A stretch of DNA of 22,571 bases from a virus. Position 1 is the stretch's first letter; the number at the start of each line of letters is the position of its first letter. The DNA lies in the IMG/VR virus record IMGVR_UViG_3300021061_000050, positions 1 through 22,571 of that record. One strand, written 5' to 3'. Below, piece after piece: positions 3,527-21,572 of this stretch. Under the pieces are notes generated by a model. It did not search any database. It was not told the DNA's origin and saw nothing but the letters and a program-made list of their open reading frames with translations. The position numbers and the translations under genes were made by a program.

Positions 3527-4291
3527 TTAGCCTTGTTGTAAGCTTCTATCCTGTTTGGGGATTAGCAGCCGCCAGAAGGCTTCCTTAATTGCTTCTACGG
3601 GATTAGTATCAAAAAGGAGAATCATTCGTGCTGCTGTGTCCTCTACCTGCTGGATATAGAGTAATTCCTTTCGCTCTAGTGCATCCCTTAACGCTTTCGG
3701 ATCTACTCCTAAATCTTCAGCCAGCGCTTTAGCTTTGCGGTTAAAGATGGTGAGATTTACTGCTTGAGCCGTGTTGGTGTAAATCCATTTTTGAGCGTTT
3801 GCCGATAGTTCTGGGTGGCGTTCGATATAAACGGCGATCGCGCCTGTTAACTCAGAATGAGTGATTTTACCATCCACTCGTGTGTTTTCCCATTCTTTGA
3901 GTTGCTTTTGATGCGGTGGTTGCCACCCTGTGATTTGTTGAATCCAGGTTTCTATACCTAACTCGTTGAATTTGTCAAGGCTGTACTCTGCTGTCTCATT
4001 GTCTGAGAACGCATAATGCTTGATTATTTTGGCACAAGCGAAAGAACGAATAATCTTAGTCTTGCCGCCTTTTTTCACATAACTCTCGCGCAGGTATAAA
4101 TCTATATTCTCTAAGGCTTTCAGTCGTTTTGGTGCTTTACTTTCGCGCAGGTTAGTTAACAGTCCTCGGAGGCTCGATTCGTTGATACCGGACAGAATAG
4201 CCAGTCCCCTTTGACTCATTCCAGATTCTCCCGTACTGTCTACGGTAAAGAACTCAACCCCGTTTTCTACAACCCTGATAATTTGAGACAT
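3527..4291 (-). CDS. Putative phage regulator, shared C-terminal domain (paralogue 1)
   Basis: The 254-residue product has an N-terminal helical part with a helix-turn-helix look (SQRGLAILSGINESSLRGLL, about 26-45), a Lys-rich middle, and a C-terminal domain from about residue 140. That domain is clearly related to the C-termini of 10892-11701 and 17518-18249: LT.AIA.Y, NA.KWIY.NT, K.LA.DL..DP, R.....EL, NP.EAI..A...L. The shared residues include LRESK and NAQKWIYTNT. It probably acts as a DNA-binding regulator or antirepressor-like protein; this is inferred from the KilA-N domain of paralogue 2. Its leader contains a hairpin (4330-4363) with a loop identical to that of paralogue 2. A HIP1 octamer is at 3834. 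Confidence 0.65.
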   Translation of the reverse strand: MSQIIRVVENGVEFFTVDSTGESGMSQRGLAILSGINESSLRGLLTNLRESKAPKRLKALENIDLYLRESYVKKGGKTKIIRSFACAKIIKHYAFSDNETAEYSLDKFNELGIETWIQQITGWQPPHQKQLKEWENTRVDGKITHSELTGAIAVYIERHPELSANAQKWIYTNTAQAVNLTIFNRKAKALAEDLGVDPKALRDALERKELLYIQQVEDTAARMILLFDTNPVEAIKEAFWRLLIPKQDRSLQQG

Positions 4292-4517: not shown

Positions 4518-4549
4518 TTGACATTTTATAATCTAGTAGGTGATAATGA
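4518..4549 (+). promoter_or_regulatory. Repeated sigma70-type promoter, copy 2
   Basis: TTGACA (4518-4523), an 18-base spacer, GATAAT (4542-4547). Bases 4526-4549 are identical to 1675-1698. It drives the operon 4579-5769, which ends at the terminator at 5778. Confidence 0.75.
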
Positions 4550-9918: not shown

Positions 9919-10746
9919 TTAAACACATATTCTTTTCATTACAAGATCGTGTAGTTGTTTACTTGCTAAATCAATCACATAATCATCTATAGATTTTATA
10001 CCGTAGTAAACAAAATTCATTTGATCAGCTAAAACCTTTAATTCTGTTAGAGCATCATCTACCATCAATCTGAGACTACATATTCTATTATTGTTTCTTA
10101 TTGATTCGGATTCATAAGATATTAGATATTCAGCATCTGCCCAGCCATTTGTAAAAATATCCAAACACATTCCCCAATCATTTACGATCGATTCATTTTG
10201 TTTTCTCAATATGGCATCTATCTTACATTCTATAGCAGCATCCTCTGAATATAGTATTTCTTCATCGTCATAATAATCTGCTAGTTTGTAAGCAGATTCT
10301 AGTTTCTTCTCGTTTTCTTTTCGTCTATTCTCCTGGACAATTTTAACTATGTTTTTTAAATATTCTGGCACATCTCCCCATAGTGGTTTATATGTTGTCG
10401 CCCCGTTTAGTATCGGATTAACTTCTTTAATTAATAAATCCTCCATTTTGTATAATTGGTCATCGGTAAACTTTACTAAATCGTCACCAACCATTTGTCG
10501 ATAGCAAAACTGTACCCCGTTGTTTAGCAGATATTGTAAATCTGGTGTTTTGTGGTGATATCCATTATTCCATCTATCGTATATGTCTTTACCTTTACCT
10601 ATGTATATAACTTTTATGAAGTTTTTACCATCTTCTGATATTTCTCCAGTGAGATAGAAAACTGCATATATCCCAGGTCTTTTTTCAAATTTGCTTGGAG
10701 AATCTACCTCATAAGATCTTTGCCAAAAACACTTCCAATAGCTCAT
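9919..10746 (-). CDS. GIY-YIG nuclease-domain protein (first)
   Basis: The 275-residue product has a GIY-YIG domain near its N-terminus: PGIYAVFY (GIY 25-27), KVIYIGKGKDIYDRW (YIG 48-50, Arg 58), and KMEDLLIKEVNPILN (Glu 102, Asn 110). These residues form the metal-dependent active site. The domain shares FTDDQL and NPILN with the second GIY-YIG protein at 12277-13074, where it is C-terminal. It may be a free-standing homing endonuclease or another phage nuclease. The C-terminal 150 residues are helical and acidic, with no known match. The ATG at 10746 with TTGAGGGG upstream is chosen; the frame also runs through a G9 tract to a GTG at 10767. A copy of the AAACTAAATTAGAA module is upstream. 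Confidence 0.72.
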   Translation of the reverse strand: MSYWKCFWQRSYEVDSPSKFEKRPGIYAVFYLTGEISEDGKNFIKVIYIGKGKDIYDRWNNGYHHKTPDLQYLLNNGVQFCYRQMVGDDLVKFTDDQLYKMEDLLIKEVNPILNGATTYKPLWGDVPEYLKNIVKIVQENRRKENEKKLESAYKLADYYDDEEILYSEDAAIECKIDAILRKQNESIVNDWGMCLDIFTNGWADAEYLISYESESIRNNNRICSLRLMVDDALTELKVLADQMNFVYYGIKSIDDYVIDLASKQLHDLVMKRICV

Positions 10747-10754
10747 CCCCTCAA

Positions 10755-10763
10755 CCCCCCCCC
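10755..10763. repeat. Nine-base C homopolymer (G9 on the minus strand)
   Basis: CCCCCCCCC at 10755-10763, in the leader of the minus-strand GIY-YIG gene, just before its ribosome-binding site. Such tracts slip readily during replication. Confidence 0.9.
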
Positions 10764-10764
10764 A

Positions 10765-10797
10765 CAACTAAATTAGAACAATAATTATATTATAGCA
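10765..10797. promoter_or_regulatory. Divergent promoter module, copy at 10765
   Basis: CAACTAAATTAGAACAATAA then TTATATTATAGCAA. ATTATA at 10789-10794 is TATAAT on the minus strand and probably drives the 9919-10746 gene. Unlike the copies at 7976, 13091 and 22455, no + strand ATG follows directly. Confidence 0.5.
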
Positions 10798-10891: not shown

Positions 10892-11701
10892 ATGGTAATA
10901 CAGAAACATAGAAACGGAATAGAGCTTTTCAACCATCAATCTAATGGGGTTGGTATCGAACAGCGAGCAGACGATGGATTTATCAACGGAACCGCCATGT
11001 GTGTTGCTCATGCTAAACGAATTAATGATTGGTTGGATACTGTACCAACCTTAGAGTTATTTATCGCACTAGCTGAAGATATTGGCGTATCGGTCAATTA
11101 CGCTTCTGTCGGTAATTTAAACGGTGTAAGGCTTTCGGCTACGTGGTATGTTAAACAGTTCCCAGAATTAATAACCGCGAAACGTGGATCGCCTGAGAAT
11201 GGTGGCGGTACTTGGCTGCATCCAGACTTGGCAATTCAACTGGCTCAATGGTGTAACAAACCGTTTGCTATTCAGGTTTCTCGCTGGGTTCGTGGTTGGA
11301 TGGTATATCTTACGGAAAAACCCCGCAAACAATGGGAGAAGAACCGACTCATTGGTAAAGTAACCCGCTGCAAGCTAACAGATGCAATTGCAGACTACCT
11401 CACACGTTACCCAGAGCTATCTGATAACGCTAAACGGTGGATTTATAAAAACACGAGCGATCATGCCTTACTCTGCCTCTTTGGTCGTCAAGCTAAAAAA
11501 CTAGCAACTGACCTAAACGCAGATCCTACTAACTTGCGGGATTCTTTCACCGATGAGGAATTAAAGTTTCTTGAGGCTCTAGAAGACCTGACATCACGTC
11601 TAATCGATGGTTATGATGTTCATCCGCTAGAGGCAATTAAACAGGCTTCAGAACGGATGTTACTACCAGTGCAAGAACGAGCCTTAATTAACCAAGGTTA
11701 G
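10892..11701 (+). CDS. KilA-N domain regulator, shared C-terminal domain (paralogue 2)
   Basis: Residues about 10-135 are a KilA-N DNA-binding domain: QRADDGFINGTAMC, HAKRINDWLD, and the typical GGGTWLHPDLAIQLAQWCNK with FAIQVSRWV. KilA-N proteins are found in phages and large DNA viruses and act as DNA-binding regulators or antirepressors. From about residue 150 a second domain is shared with 3527-4291 and 17518-18249 (CKLTDAIADYLTRYPELS, NAKRWIYKNT, LFGRQAKKLATDL, HPLEAIKQA). ATG at 10892, Shine-Dalgarno CGGAGA. It has its own promoter and leader hairpin, and is followed by the terminator at 11731, so it forms a self-contained + strand cassette within the head cluster. Confidence 0.8.
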   Translation: MVIQKHRNGIELFNHQSNGVGIEQRADDGFINGTAMCVAHAKRINDWLDTVPTLELFIALAEDIGVSVNYASVGNLNGVRLSATWYVKQFPELITAKRGSPENGGGTWLHPDLAIQLAQWCNKPFAIQVSRWVRGWMVYLTEKPRKQWEKNRLIGKVTRCKLTDAIADYLTRYPELSDNAKRWIYKNTSDHALLCLFGRQAKKLATDLNADPTNLRDSFTDEELKFLEALEDLTSRLIDGYDVHPLEAIKQASERMLLPVQERALINQG

Positions 11702-11763: not shown

Positions 11764-11808
11764 ATTGAGAATATAGCAGTCTTATTGACACAACATTTAT
11801 GAAAAGCT

Positions 11809-11883
11809 GAAAACGACCAAACAAATACGCAGTATAGGTTTAAGGTGTTCGATAGTCCTTATAGTATTAAGAGTGGTGTGCAA
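11809..11883 (+). repeat. Dispersed two-copy element, copy 2 (intergenic)
   Basis: Matches 825-899, with 33 identical bases at 11837-11869. As in copy 1, the sequence TTTTTTATTGAGAAT and TTATTGAC lie upstream, just after a terminator, but the distance to the repeat is about 88 bases shorter. Part of the 575-base stretch 11702-12276, which otherwise holds a terminator, a decayed gene and a minus-strand terminator. Confidence 0.55.
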
Positions 11884-11944
11884 TACTTATTTTTACTTTC
11901 GGTTAAGCTTTCAAGCTGTGGGGAGAACAACCAGAATTAAGATT

Positions 11945-12276: not shown

Positions 12277-13074
12277 TTAGGCTGTTATTGGCACTACCTT
12301 GTTGTTGTAGACTGGTGTGTTGTTAAGCTTGGGGTTGGTGGCAGCGATTAATGTTCTTTCGATTTGGTCTAGTTGTTCGTCTGTGAATTGGATTAAACCG
12401 CTTTCGGAATACATTACACGATAAAAAACATTAATCCCTAACTTTTTCATTAGTTCAACTTCAGGTATTTGATGATAATTTACGCATCGTTGCTCCACGT
12501 TTTTACTTTTACCAACGTGTATGAATTCTATTTTGTTCTCTATTCTTGCTAACACCGCATATATACCCGCGACAGGTGGTAAATCTTTAGCGTTAATAAA
12601 TAGTTTTGAATGCTTATAAAAGCTTAATATTTTACAAGCATTAACGTATTCATTACTGTTACAATCATGAATTGGTAGGGAAATGCCGAAATCACAACAT
12701 AGTTTTAATGTTAGAAAATCGCTCAAATGGTTGCACATACCATGTTCATTACTGCCAAATTTAGCAGATATTATGTCCCATTGATATTTAGCTATCATGT
12801 GGTTTGGGAACGATGGATAATAACTATCAATCCGTATTCTACCAATTTTATATTGGCGGGTGTATTTGCAAAATAAGTCTTCAAAAAAGGAATCTACAGA
12901 AATGTTATACATTCCTGATATTTCTCGTAAAAAATTATAGCCGTGTGTAGTTAAACCTATAAATAATGTGTTATCTGTGTTTAAATGTATTTTCCTAACA
13001 GTGTTTTTGCTACAACCAAATCCCACACCCGACCAGGAATCAACAACTATTTCTAACAGTTTTTTTTCTTCCAC
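12277..13074 (-). CDS. GIY-YIG nuclease-domain protein (second)
   Basis: The 265-residue product carries a GIY-YIG domain at its C-terminus: VAGIYAVLARI (GIY at about 170), FIHVGKSKNVEQRC (HVG replaces YIG, Arg about 196), and LDQIERTLIAATNPKLN (Glu about 239, Asn about 247). It shares FTDEQL and NPKLN with the first GIY-YIG protein, but the order is reversed: here about 165 unrelated residues come first, containing a cysteine/histidine cluster (HGMCNHLSDF). GTG at 13074 is chosen because AGAGG precedes it; a TTG at 13092 is in frame. It sits between two decayed DUF2213 fragments and upstream of the intact DUF2213 gene, suggesting a free-standing homing endonuclease. Confidence 0.7.
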   Translation of the reverse strand: MEEKKLLEIVVDSWSGVGFGCSKNTVRKIHLNTDNTLFIGLTTHGYNFLREISGMYNISVDSFFEDLFCKYTRQYKIGRIRIDSYYPSFPNHMIAKYQWDIISAKFGSNEHGMCNHLSDFLTLKLCCDFGISLPIHDCNSNEYVNACKILSFYKHSKLFINAKDLPPVAGIYAVLARIENKIEFIHVGKSKNVEQRCVNYHQIPEVELMKKLGINVFYRVMYSESGLIQFTDEQLDQIERTLIAATNPKLNNTPVYNNKVVPITA

Positions 13075-13090
13075 AACTCCAACCTCTTTC

Positions 13091-13122
13091 AAACTAAATT
13101 AGAATACTATTTATACTATACC
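13091..13122. promoter_or_regulatory. Divergent promoter/start module, copy at 13123
   Basis: AAACTAAATTAGAATACTAT then TTATACTATACC immediately before the ATG at 13123. TATACT gives a near-leaderless + transcript, and TATAGT on the minus strand gives a -10 for the GIY-YIG gene. Almost the same sequence lies at 7976, 10765 and 22455. Confidence 0.5.
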
Positions 13123-17517: not shown

Positions 17518-18249
17518 ATGTCTAATAATAACACAAATCGAGCAAAAGTAGCACCCATTTACTTTGGTGAAGATGTGGTATTCGATGGATTGCTACTTCC
17601 TAACGATGATTATGCGGTGGGTGTTTCACAGGTTTCTGAATTATTCCAGTTCCCCAATAAACACGCCTCAAGGGATATTAAAGCTTTACTGGGTAAGGAT
17701 TTCCAGTTCCCCAAAAGCGCGTCAGAACTGAACCCTAAGGAAGTAAATATACTCACCCTAAATCAGTTTGAGACTGTAATGGTAGAGCTTGCTTTTACAG
17801 GTAATGAGAAAGCTAAAACACTTGTTCGGGCAATGACAGGGTTGTCTCTGCGTCAAATCTTCGCTGATAGCTTTAACCGGAAGCTTGAGAAAGACGAACG
17901 TCAAGCAATCTTAACCCAGCAATTACGCAACAAGGTAGCACGACGACTTTTGACAGACGCTATACGCGACTATATGACCCGTAACGGTGTTGAGGGTAAT
18001 GCAAAGGCATGGATGTACCGGAACGTTACCGATAAGACCTACAAGCTTCTATTCGGTCGGAGTTGTAAACGATTAAAGGAGGATTGGAGTTCAGATGATG
18101 TTAGGGAGTCACTAACAATAGACGAACTGAGCGATTTAGAAAACCTAGAGAAAACAGCAATGCGAAAGATCGATAAGGAGAATATGCACCCATTAGATGC
18201 GGTGGAGAGTGCGTTTAATATTTTACTGCTTGATGCCTGTCTGCGGTAG
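17518..18249 (+). CDS. Putative phage regulator, shared C-terminal domain (paralogue 3)
   Basis: The 243-residue product has an N-terminal module distinct from the other two: ANDDYAVGVSQVSELF-like sequence (LPNDDYAVGVSQVSELFQF), HASRDIKALLGKDFQFPK, then PKEVNILTLNQFETVMVELA. From about 138 it shares the C-terminal domain with 3527-4291 and 10892-11701: LLTDAIRDYMTR, NAKAWMYRNVTDK, LFGRSCKRLKEDW, ELSDLENLEKTAMR, HPLDAVESA. ATG at 17518. It has its own promoter, leader hairpin and terminator. It is probably a DNA-binding phage regulator. Confidence 0.65.
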   Translation: MSNNNTNRAKVAPIYFGEDVVFDGLLLPNDDYAVGVSQVSELFQFPNKHASRDIKALLGKDFQFPKSASELNPKEVNILTLNQFETVMVELAFTGNEKAKTLVRAMTGLSLRQIFADSFNRKLEKDERQAILTQQLRNKVARRLLTDAIRDYMTRNGVEGNAKAWMYRNVTDKTYKLLFGRSCKRLKEDWSSDDVRESLTIDELSDLENLEKTAMRKIDKENMHPLDAVESAFNILLLDACLR

Positions 18250-20099: not shown

Positions 20100-20435
20100 T
20101 CAAAAATCAGCAAGGTGACGATAAACTTCTTCCCGTTCTGTAACCGAATCTAAGGAAGCTTCAAAACCTGTTTGCTCATTCTTTGGTTCTTTGTTATCTT
20201 TCACCCAATTCCTAAAATCATCCCATTCCGCATACCAAGGATTAGCACCCATTTCTGGATCGTAATCTAATTTATCCCAAGGTAAATTGTTATAAATTCT
20301 TTCTCTATGTGAGATTGGAATATCTTTCCAATATTCTTTAACTATGGAAATTATTTCTAAGCCTTCTTCTTTCCCCATAGTATGTTCTAAAGCATTGACT
20401 GCAAATCCTAATATCCCAATATCTTTATCATTCAT
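20100..20435 (-). CDS. Hypothetical 111-residue protein
   Basis: Minus-strand ATG at 20435 directly after the TGA of 20436-21572, with GGTGGAG upstream, so the genes are coupled. The sequence begins MNDKDIGILGFAVNALEHTM, a helical region, then an aromatic, acidic middle (PWDKLDYDPEMGANPWYAEW). No domain recognised. Its stop abuts the stop of the + gene 19887-20099. It may be a partner of the large three-domain protein with which it is co-transcribed. Confidence 0.6.
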   Translation of the reverse strand: MNDKDIGILGFAVNALEHTMGKEEGLEIISIVKEYWKDIPISHRERIYNNLPWDKLDYDPEMGANPWYAEWDDFRNWVKDNKEPKNEQTGFEASLDSVTEREEVYRHLADF

Positions 20436-21572
20436 TCACTCCACCTCAAACAATATTAGATTCAATCCGTCAGTTAATGTACCTAATACATCGTCGAGCG
20501 ATCTCAATTGTTTGCCAACACCCTCACCCTTAGGTTCACGACGGGTCTGAGCTTCCTTATCGGCTATTGCCTTGATAGTAGCTAAAGCTTCTACAGGGTC
20601 TTCATCTGTTCTGAGTATATCCAGCAAGGAACGCCCGTTTAAAATTGGACGATGTACCAGCTTATCTAGACGGATGATGTTTGCTTGATTAAATTTATCG
20701 GCAGCGCGGGACAATTGCTGAATACATATTACTGCTTCTCCCTTTGGCTCTTGTCCTGCTAACCAAGCATAGACCGTAGGACGAGTGACTCCTAGAACAG
20801 AAGCTAAATCAGACATACTTATAGCAAATACATCACGGATGTTAGCAACATGCTCAGCAGGGGATCGTATATCAGTCTGCTTTGCCCTAGAAGGTTCGAC
20901 ATGTATACATCCAAACCAAATAGTTTCGTCTGAGTCTTGGACATTTTTTATGGCACGAGGTTTGTATTCCAAACTTTCGTGTTCAATTAACCCAAATTGT
21001 TTTAAATCTGGATTTTCTCCGTCGCTCCCATCTGGATTGCAAATACGATAACCTTTTGGGGCTGTACCTCCAGTAGGTATACCACAATTTTTAGCTGCCA
21101 TTAACCCTGCAAAATCGGCTCCTGTTTGTCCACCACTGATTACCTTTTTCGGATATCTTTTTTCTTCAATAATATTAGATTCAATCCGCCAGTTAATGTA
21201 CCTAACCAATACATCAGCATGACAGTCTTTAGGTTTACACCAGCACAACAACTTAATAGAATCGCCAGCTTGTATTTTTTCAATAATTCGTTGAATTTCT
21301 TCCTCAACTTGAATTGGTGTAGATTTAACTCTGCGGTTTGAAATTTTTACGCCAAACTTCTCAGCGATGGGATTAAGATCAATCGGTTTATCAGAATCCC
21401 TATTCCTAAAGCACTCCCACAAATAACTTCTAAAAGCTTTGATAACTGGCGTTCTTAGTGATTCATCTCTCCCCATATCAAATGGGTTTCCCAATATGGT
21501 AGAACGATCAACACGAATATTAGTCCATCCTATTTTCATATCTGATATCAATGATCCTGATTGGATAACCAT
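20436..21572 (-). CDS. Three-domain protein: DUF4326, MoCo-carrier/SLOG-like, HTH
   Basis: The 378-residue product has a DUF4326 segment (about 14-135) with ILGNPFD, a helix, then LLCWCKPKDCHADVL. Next comes a MoCo-carrier (PF12694-type, SLOG superfamily) segment (143-220): KKVISGGQTGADFAGLMAAK, GIPTGGTAPKGYR, DSDETIWF. Usual sequences after TLIF are missing, so this domain looks cut short. From about 240 a helix-turn-helix (SMSDLASVLGVTRPTVYAWL) and a tail with HRPILNGRSLLDIL follow. SLOG proteins bind nucleotides or NAD-like ligands, so a ligand-sensing regulator is plausible. A direct repeat (20452-20492, 21171-21215) marks where the last two parts join. ATG at 21572 with AAAAGGGG upstream. 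Confidence 0.72.
   Translation of the reverse strand: MVIQSGSLISDMKIGWTNIRVDRSTILGNPFDMGRDESLRTPVIKAFRSYLWECFRNRDSDKPIDLNPIAEKFGVKISNRRVKSTPIQVEEEIQRIIEKIQAGDSIKLLCWCKPKDCHADVLVRYINWRIESNIIEEKRYPKKVISGGQTGADFAGLMAAKNCGIPTGGTAPKGYRICNPDGSDGENPDLKQFGLIEHESLEYKPRAIKNVQDSDETIWFGCIHVEPSRAKQTDIRSPAEHVANIRDVFAISMSDLASVLGVTRPTVYAWLAGQEPKGEAVICIQQLSRAADKFNQANIIRLDKLVHRPILNGRSLLDILRTDEDPVEALATIKAIADKEAQTRREPKGEGVGKQLRSLDDVLGTLTDGLNLILFEVE
20452..20492. repeat. Direct repeat R1 in the 20436-21572 gene
   Basis: Matches 21171-21215 at 40 of 41 aligned bases apart from a 4-base gap. On the minus strand it encodes DVLGTLTDGLNLIL at the end of the protein, in a different frame from copy R2. Confidence 0.9.
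21171..21215. repeat. Direct repeat R2 in the 20436-21572 gene
   Basis: Partner of R1, carrying an extra CCAA (21206-21209). On the minus strand it encodes DVLVRYINWRIESNI at the end of the DUF4326 segment. Confidence 0.9.

Follow-up and report, generated by a model that had tools for sequence, protein, structure and literature searches.

Proteins of the DUF4326 family belong to the rhodanese-phosphatase superfamily, are often fused to SLOG, Macro or NADAR domains, and have been proposed to act on the terminal phosphates of ADP-ribose derivatives (PMC9503650; PMC7824862). Phage DUF4326-SLOG fusions within an NAD+/ADP-ribose network have already been reported (PMC9503650, PMC7824862), as have phage proteins in which SLOG is sporadically fused to an HTH (PMC9503650, from the text on its Figure 5i). 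We analyzed a gene related to both, carried by a metagenomic fragment of 22,571 bases (IMG/VR virus record IMGVR_UViG_3300021061_000050), the whole of which is referred to here as the window. It shares with the DUF4326-SLOG fusions, represented here by a protein of the phage contig IMGVR_UViG_3300041964_000014 (L050), the order DUF4326 followed by cpYpsA SLOG and the same 5-residue SLOG insert; L050, which is without an HTH, has its SLOG in full, whereas in the window gene just half of the SLOG is left, accompanied by an HTH of host origin and a duplicated tail. With the sporadic fusions it shares a SLOG domain joined to an HTH DNA-binding domain, but, relative to the fusions as the text of PMC9503650 describes them, its SLOG is halved and its HTH has an identifiable source, one particular cyanobacterial operon.

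Domain content of the chimeric gene and its phage setting

The window encodes a portal, a head-maturation protease, a major head protein and an endolysin, as identified by Pfam and a further family search. Matches of the major capsid protein in the phage collection are only about 27–32% identical, and the cyanobacterial relatives of the portal are about 30% identical. The phage collection contained no megablast match to the window as a whole, and the major capsid protein used as bait recovered no relatives from the viral contigs. The gene downstream of the chimera (20100..20435, minus strand) encodes 111 aa and matches phrog_11947, a family of unknown function, with E 5.6e-6; because a scan of the viral contigs with this gene was empty, no syntenic relative of the window was identified.

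Elsewhere in the window, three genes (3527-4291, 10892-11701 and 17518-18249) have a common C-terminal domain of about 105–125 aa at 33–48% identity; one of them carries an N-terminal KilA-N domain, and the three therefore appear to form a phage family with swapped N-termini. Two other genes (9919-10767 and 12277-13092), neither of which has a Pfam match, share a ~114-aa domain (31% identity, E 4e-12) located at opposite protein ends. A 32-bp repeat (1667-1698 and 4518-4549; 94%) includes TTGACA followed about 18 bases on by GATAAT, and is possibly a repeated phage promoter. There is also a 91-nt direct repeat (818-908 and 11802-11892) that is 75% identical and has a perfect core of ~35 nt.

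The chimeric gene occupies positions 20436..21572 on the minus strand and is an intact ORF of 378 codons containing both copies, R1 and R2, of a direct repeat. ORF, Pfam and DNA homology analyses resolve it into DUF4326, a truncated SLOG, a cyanobacterial HTH and an out-of-frame DUF4326 tail. The DUF4326 domain (21204..21530, minus strand; residues 15-123) matches PF14216 with E 1.6e-14 and a score of 54.8 bits against a Pfam gathering cut-off of 25. Its CWCxPxxCHxD motif is intact, with C110, C112, C117 and H118 of the CxC...CHxD pattern invariant in the alignment. The SLOG part (20910..21143, minus strand; residues 144-225) matches the cpYpsA SLOG family PF12694 with E 3.4e-13 and 50 bits against a cut-off of 26.2, but over profile positions 1-75 of 145 only. 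It retains GGQTGAD and GGTAPKG in the alignment and is without the C-terminal half that bears NVAGNR; a six-frame search of the window for the C-terminal NVAGxR motif of complete SLOG domains found no NVAG. Its match to the SLOG profile ends at position 87, the sole such case among 102 SLOG ORFs, as against 131–156 in the 101 others. Pfam matches to HTH families fell near residues 250-290 and were all below threshold. AlphaFold gave the chimera low overall confidence (pTM 0.33) and was fairly confident in the HTH region only (pLDDT about 74–87, residues 240-340), with the SLOG remnant ranging between 37 and 78 and low at both edges. No homologue of the three-domain DUF4326-SLOG-HTH layout, including any that lacks the repeats, was found in the viral contigs or in sets of 386 and 391 cyanobacterial genomes.

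A viral scan by SLOG alignment yielded 80 loci; the DUF4326 alignment was too weakly conserved to serve as bait. Among 153 loci in all, DUF4326 and SLOG occur in one ORF just in the window (locus L003) and in L050, nearly all the DUF4326 ORFs found being without SLOG. The L050 protein, 286 aa long with a complete SLOG, is collinear with the window protein over residues 19-221 at 45% identity, and the homology ends at residue 221, immediately ahead of the HTH. The two form a sister pair (96/82) in a tree built on the N-terminal half of SLOG, and a stand-alone SLOG (L051) joins them at 90/87. The DUF4326 tree was uninformative, with support of 25/0 for the window plus L050 and the window plus L036 not rejected (p-AU 0.47). 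AlphaFold confidence for L050 was low overall, with the segment absent from the window among its most confident regions. Since the sister of the window's SLOG is already fused to DUF4326, the DUF4326-SLOG fusion likely predates the HTH; in these comparisons the fusion is probably the older event, and the captured HTH probably replaced the C-terminal half of SLOG. The preliminary description of this DNA had SLOG and HTH arriving together, a proposal that the full-length, collinear and sister DUF4326-SLOG protein of L050 disfavors.

As separate observations, DUF4326 lies N-terminally in longer open frames of 435–526 codons at three loci of cyanobacterial genomes (L135, L136 and L146), and a Rhizonema MAG contig (L033:6480-14768) holds a 2762-codon stop-free frame that resembles a phage polyvalent protein and has a complete SLOG near its C-terminal end.

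Cyanobacterial HTH segment and its junctions

The HTH segment (20487..20908, minus strand) comes from a cyanobacterial operon, TIGR04255-HTH-268 aa, to which it is 92.8–93.7% DNA-identical (segment aligned to L009, L039 and L040; operon represented by L004, L039 and L040). With FACHB-502 the DNA identity is 92.8% across 428 bp (window positions 20481 to 20908), and two further genomes from the order holding Fischerella match at 93.7% and 93.0%; across these three close hosts the alignments span 426–428 bp and end sharply at 20481 and 20908. DNA identity of the HTH part to its closest cyanobacterial relatives overall is 82–94%. A genome scan found four cyanobacterial loci, one of them partial, that encode this part (residues 218-364) at 75–93% protein identity, and the DNA-binding region is 93% identical over 142 aa to the operon regulator.

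In the complete host copies examined, the HTH gene (~217 aa) is the middle one of three, between genes for a 263-aa TIGR04255 protein (E 3.2e-44) and a 268-aa protein without family. The operon is patchy: of 386 genomes spanning the phylum 2 have a protein match of at least 60%, as do 5 of 391 genomes from one order, and all three genes also occur, in diverged form, on a Robbsia plasmid. The operon resembles a mobile conflict cassette. PADLOC run on it returned a single weak HTH-like match (mad1), the HTH searched against PDB sequences matched TetR-like and other regulators only weakly, and a literature search on TIGR04255 found no paper naming it. The operon was seen at L004:5031-7259 and also at L005, L006, L038, L039, L040, L042 and L048, its HTH protein having a hydrophobic N-terminus. 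Compared with the host gene, the phage copy keeps ~140 of 217 codons and is without the hydrophobic N-terminus, the last ~11 residues and the partner genes; tblastn located neither the TIGR04255 nor the 268-aa gene in the window, where the operon context is thus not kept.

Because complete host copies of the HTH gene form the middle of a three-gene operon and no relative was found in the viral contigs, including in a scan with an HTH profile, we infer that the transfer ran from host to phage. The GC content of the segment is 45% against 38.8% for the window, a value that about 5% of window stretches reach.

Both ends of the segment can be placed closely. The SLOG|HTH junction lies within 20905..20912 (minus strand): phage SLOG homology, followed through L050, stops at residue 221 (TGGTTTGG) and that to the hosts sets in at 20908, so that no more than a few bases are ambiguous. 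The preliminary description had read the truncated look of the SLOG as fitting a recombinant origin, a reading borne out by host DNA that begins where SLOG homology ends and by a profile match confined to the first 75 positions. The HTH|R1 junction lies within 20481..20492 (minus strand), inside GATGTATTAGGT, as located from the aligned hosts, R1 and R2; the sequence is GATGTATTAGGT|ACATTAAC in the window, GATGTGTTAGGT|GAATCTT in the closest hosts and GATGTATTGGTTAGGTACATTAAC in R2. Here the switch from host to phage falls within 6–7 nt common to both parents. Host homology that stops inside R1 at this microhomology, and at 20908 on the other side, marks the HTH as a recent illegitimate capture from a cyanobacterium, as far as the alignments tell. 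We found nothing on point in the literature on microhomology-driven phage capture. Where the three close hosts agree, the window differs by four synonymous and two non-synonymous changes (R to C near residue 283 and H to Q near residue 355), and it has a window-specific 6-bp in-frame insertion near codon 347; six substitutions are too few to show selection on the chimera.

Repeats and the origin of the chimera

R2 (21168..21215, minus strand) carries, in the native reading frame, the C-terminal helix of DUF4326, DVLVRYINWRIESNI; the majority of stand-alone DUF4326 proteins stop a little beyond this helix. R1 (20449..20492, minus strand) is a duplicate of the DUF4326 tail that is read out of frame as DVLGTLTDGLNLIL. 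The preliminary description reported that the two direct repeats match at 40/41 bases with a 4-base gap, which is exact (GATGTA----TTAGGT...). Their ungapped core (20449-20486 against 21168-21205, spacing 719) is identical at 36 of 38 positions, the longest exact run is 18 nt, and a simple independent-base estimate puts the chance expectation for such a pair in the window at about 1e-10 to 1e-9. The possibility, raised at the same time, of a generic dispersed repeat is rejected, as the window has just these two copies; the exact core pattern was found in none of the viral contigs. It had also been predicted that deletion between the repeats would leave a DUF4326 protein ending ..RIESNIV. This is one of two outcomes: a W codon is TGG in R2 and TGA in R1 in the DUF4326 frame, and therefore the excised gene would end ...RIESNIV* (135 aa) or ...RYIN* (127 aa), depending on the position of the crossover. 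Relatives ending near RIESNI were not encountered, no gene with an R1-type tail sequence being found in the viral contigs.

The best explanation, which we consider rather likely, is a phage DUF4326-SLOG fusion gene that later captured a host HTH. The ancestral gene would have resembled that of L050. During replication in a cyanobacterial cell, recent illegitimate recombination, in the simplest case by template switching or by the joining of ends at short microhomologies, would have exchanged the C-terminal half of SLOG, in frame, for ~425 bp of a chromosomal regulator, the HTH of the TIGR04255-HTH-268 aa operon. The strand would then have returned to phage DNA at TTAGGT within a copy of the DUF4326 tail, leaving R1 as a 38–44 bp duplication. 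The product would have kept its DUF4326 domain, lost SLOG nucleotide sensing and gained a DNA-binding domain. Against this, the DUF4326 tree does not resolve a pairing of the window with L050, and R1, with its stop and the start of the next gene, resembles a natural DUF4326 gene end, a likeness that this history must put down to coincidence or to a second allele. The search for relatives turned up no phage lacking the HTH, so that the order of the steps is deduced rather than seen.

That likeness is what recommends another origin, possible but doubtful, in which a stand-alone DUF4326 gene (135 aa, RIESNIV* end) gained SLOG remnant and HTH in one event and R1 plus stop is the original gene end. 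The copying strand would have left its template at AATATT, run through a SLOG gene and the host HTH in turn, and re-entered 38 bp upstream of its exit, producing R2 and R1. R1 indeed leads directly into the stop (TGA, 20448-20446), and the next gene begins close by, its start codon lying 10 bases past this stop; the implied C-terminus ..INWRIESNIV* resembles a real stand-alone DUF4326 end, ..CVEWMIGEEIV. The rarity of SLOG among DUF4326 ORFs and the presence of the stand-alone L051 in the same SLOG clade fit as well. However, the nearest relative of the window's SLOG already has DUF4326 fused to it, with an identical domain order, and no stand-alone gene with such a tail was found in the viral contigs. 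Because most stand-alone proteins end near the same helix, R1 and its stop may yet derive from the end of a stand-alone allele; R1 may be either this or templated filler, and in the former case two new joints, SLOG|HTH and HTH|R1, could suffice. Of the SLOG+HTH cassette in a DUF4326 gene that was first proposed, a recombinant gene with foreign DNA between the repeats and one junction inside R1 is supported; a joint arrival of SLOG and HTH is not clearly supported, and the evidence does not amount to a mobile cassette of the two that inserts into DUF4326 genes.

It is very unlikely that assembly or amplification artificially joined phage and host DNA. The window is a metagenomic fragment known from assembled sequence alone, and such samples contain host DNA. 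Yet common assembly k-mers are longer than 18 nt, and the exact runs common to both sides at the junctions are 6–18 nt; misassembly is unlikely because even the longest R1/R2 run falls short of such k-mers. The differences between R1 and R2 at 2 of 38 sites speak against a fresh amplification artefact, and the two in-frame joints yield an ORF of 378 codons. A transposon-like or site-specific mobile cassette with target-site duplication is scarcely credible, and a transposon duplication is rejected, because, although direct repeats flank the insert, the DNA between them is SLOG and host regulator coding sequence in which no transposase ORF or family or terminal inverted repeats were reported, host homology runs on into R1 and ends inside the repeat, and a second copy of the layout was not found.

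Predicted product and implications for phage fusions

Under the favored history of fusion followed by HTH capture, the product is likeliest a DUF4326 enzyme that carries a DNA-binding domain and a SLOG no longer functional; the enzyme part is predicted to process ADP-ribose phosphates. The chimera may equally be a young non-functional accident. We regard as unlikely a counter-defence role, in which the captured HTH of a host conflict operon would bring DUF4326 to the TIGR04255-HTH-268 aa operon of the cyanobacterial host, or repress it; in that case the operon would be a mobile system of anti-phage or toxin-antitoxin type that has yet to be described.

What emerges is a recent capture of a host domain by a phage, with a source that can be traced, giving a variant of known phage fusions. 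In sporadic phage fusions of SLOG or DUF4326 to DNA-binding domains the origin of the added domain is rarely traceable; here the donor and recipient gene families and both HTH junctions are identifiable, in a capture that is young. The finding likewise points to the patchy operon of three genes as a candidate conflict system. The origin of such fusions by microhomology-assisted capture of host DNA thereby becomes directly testable.
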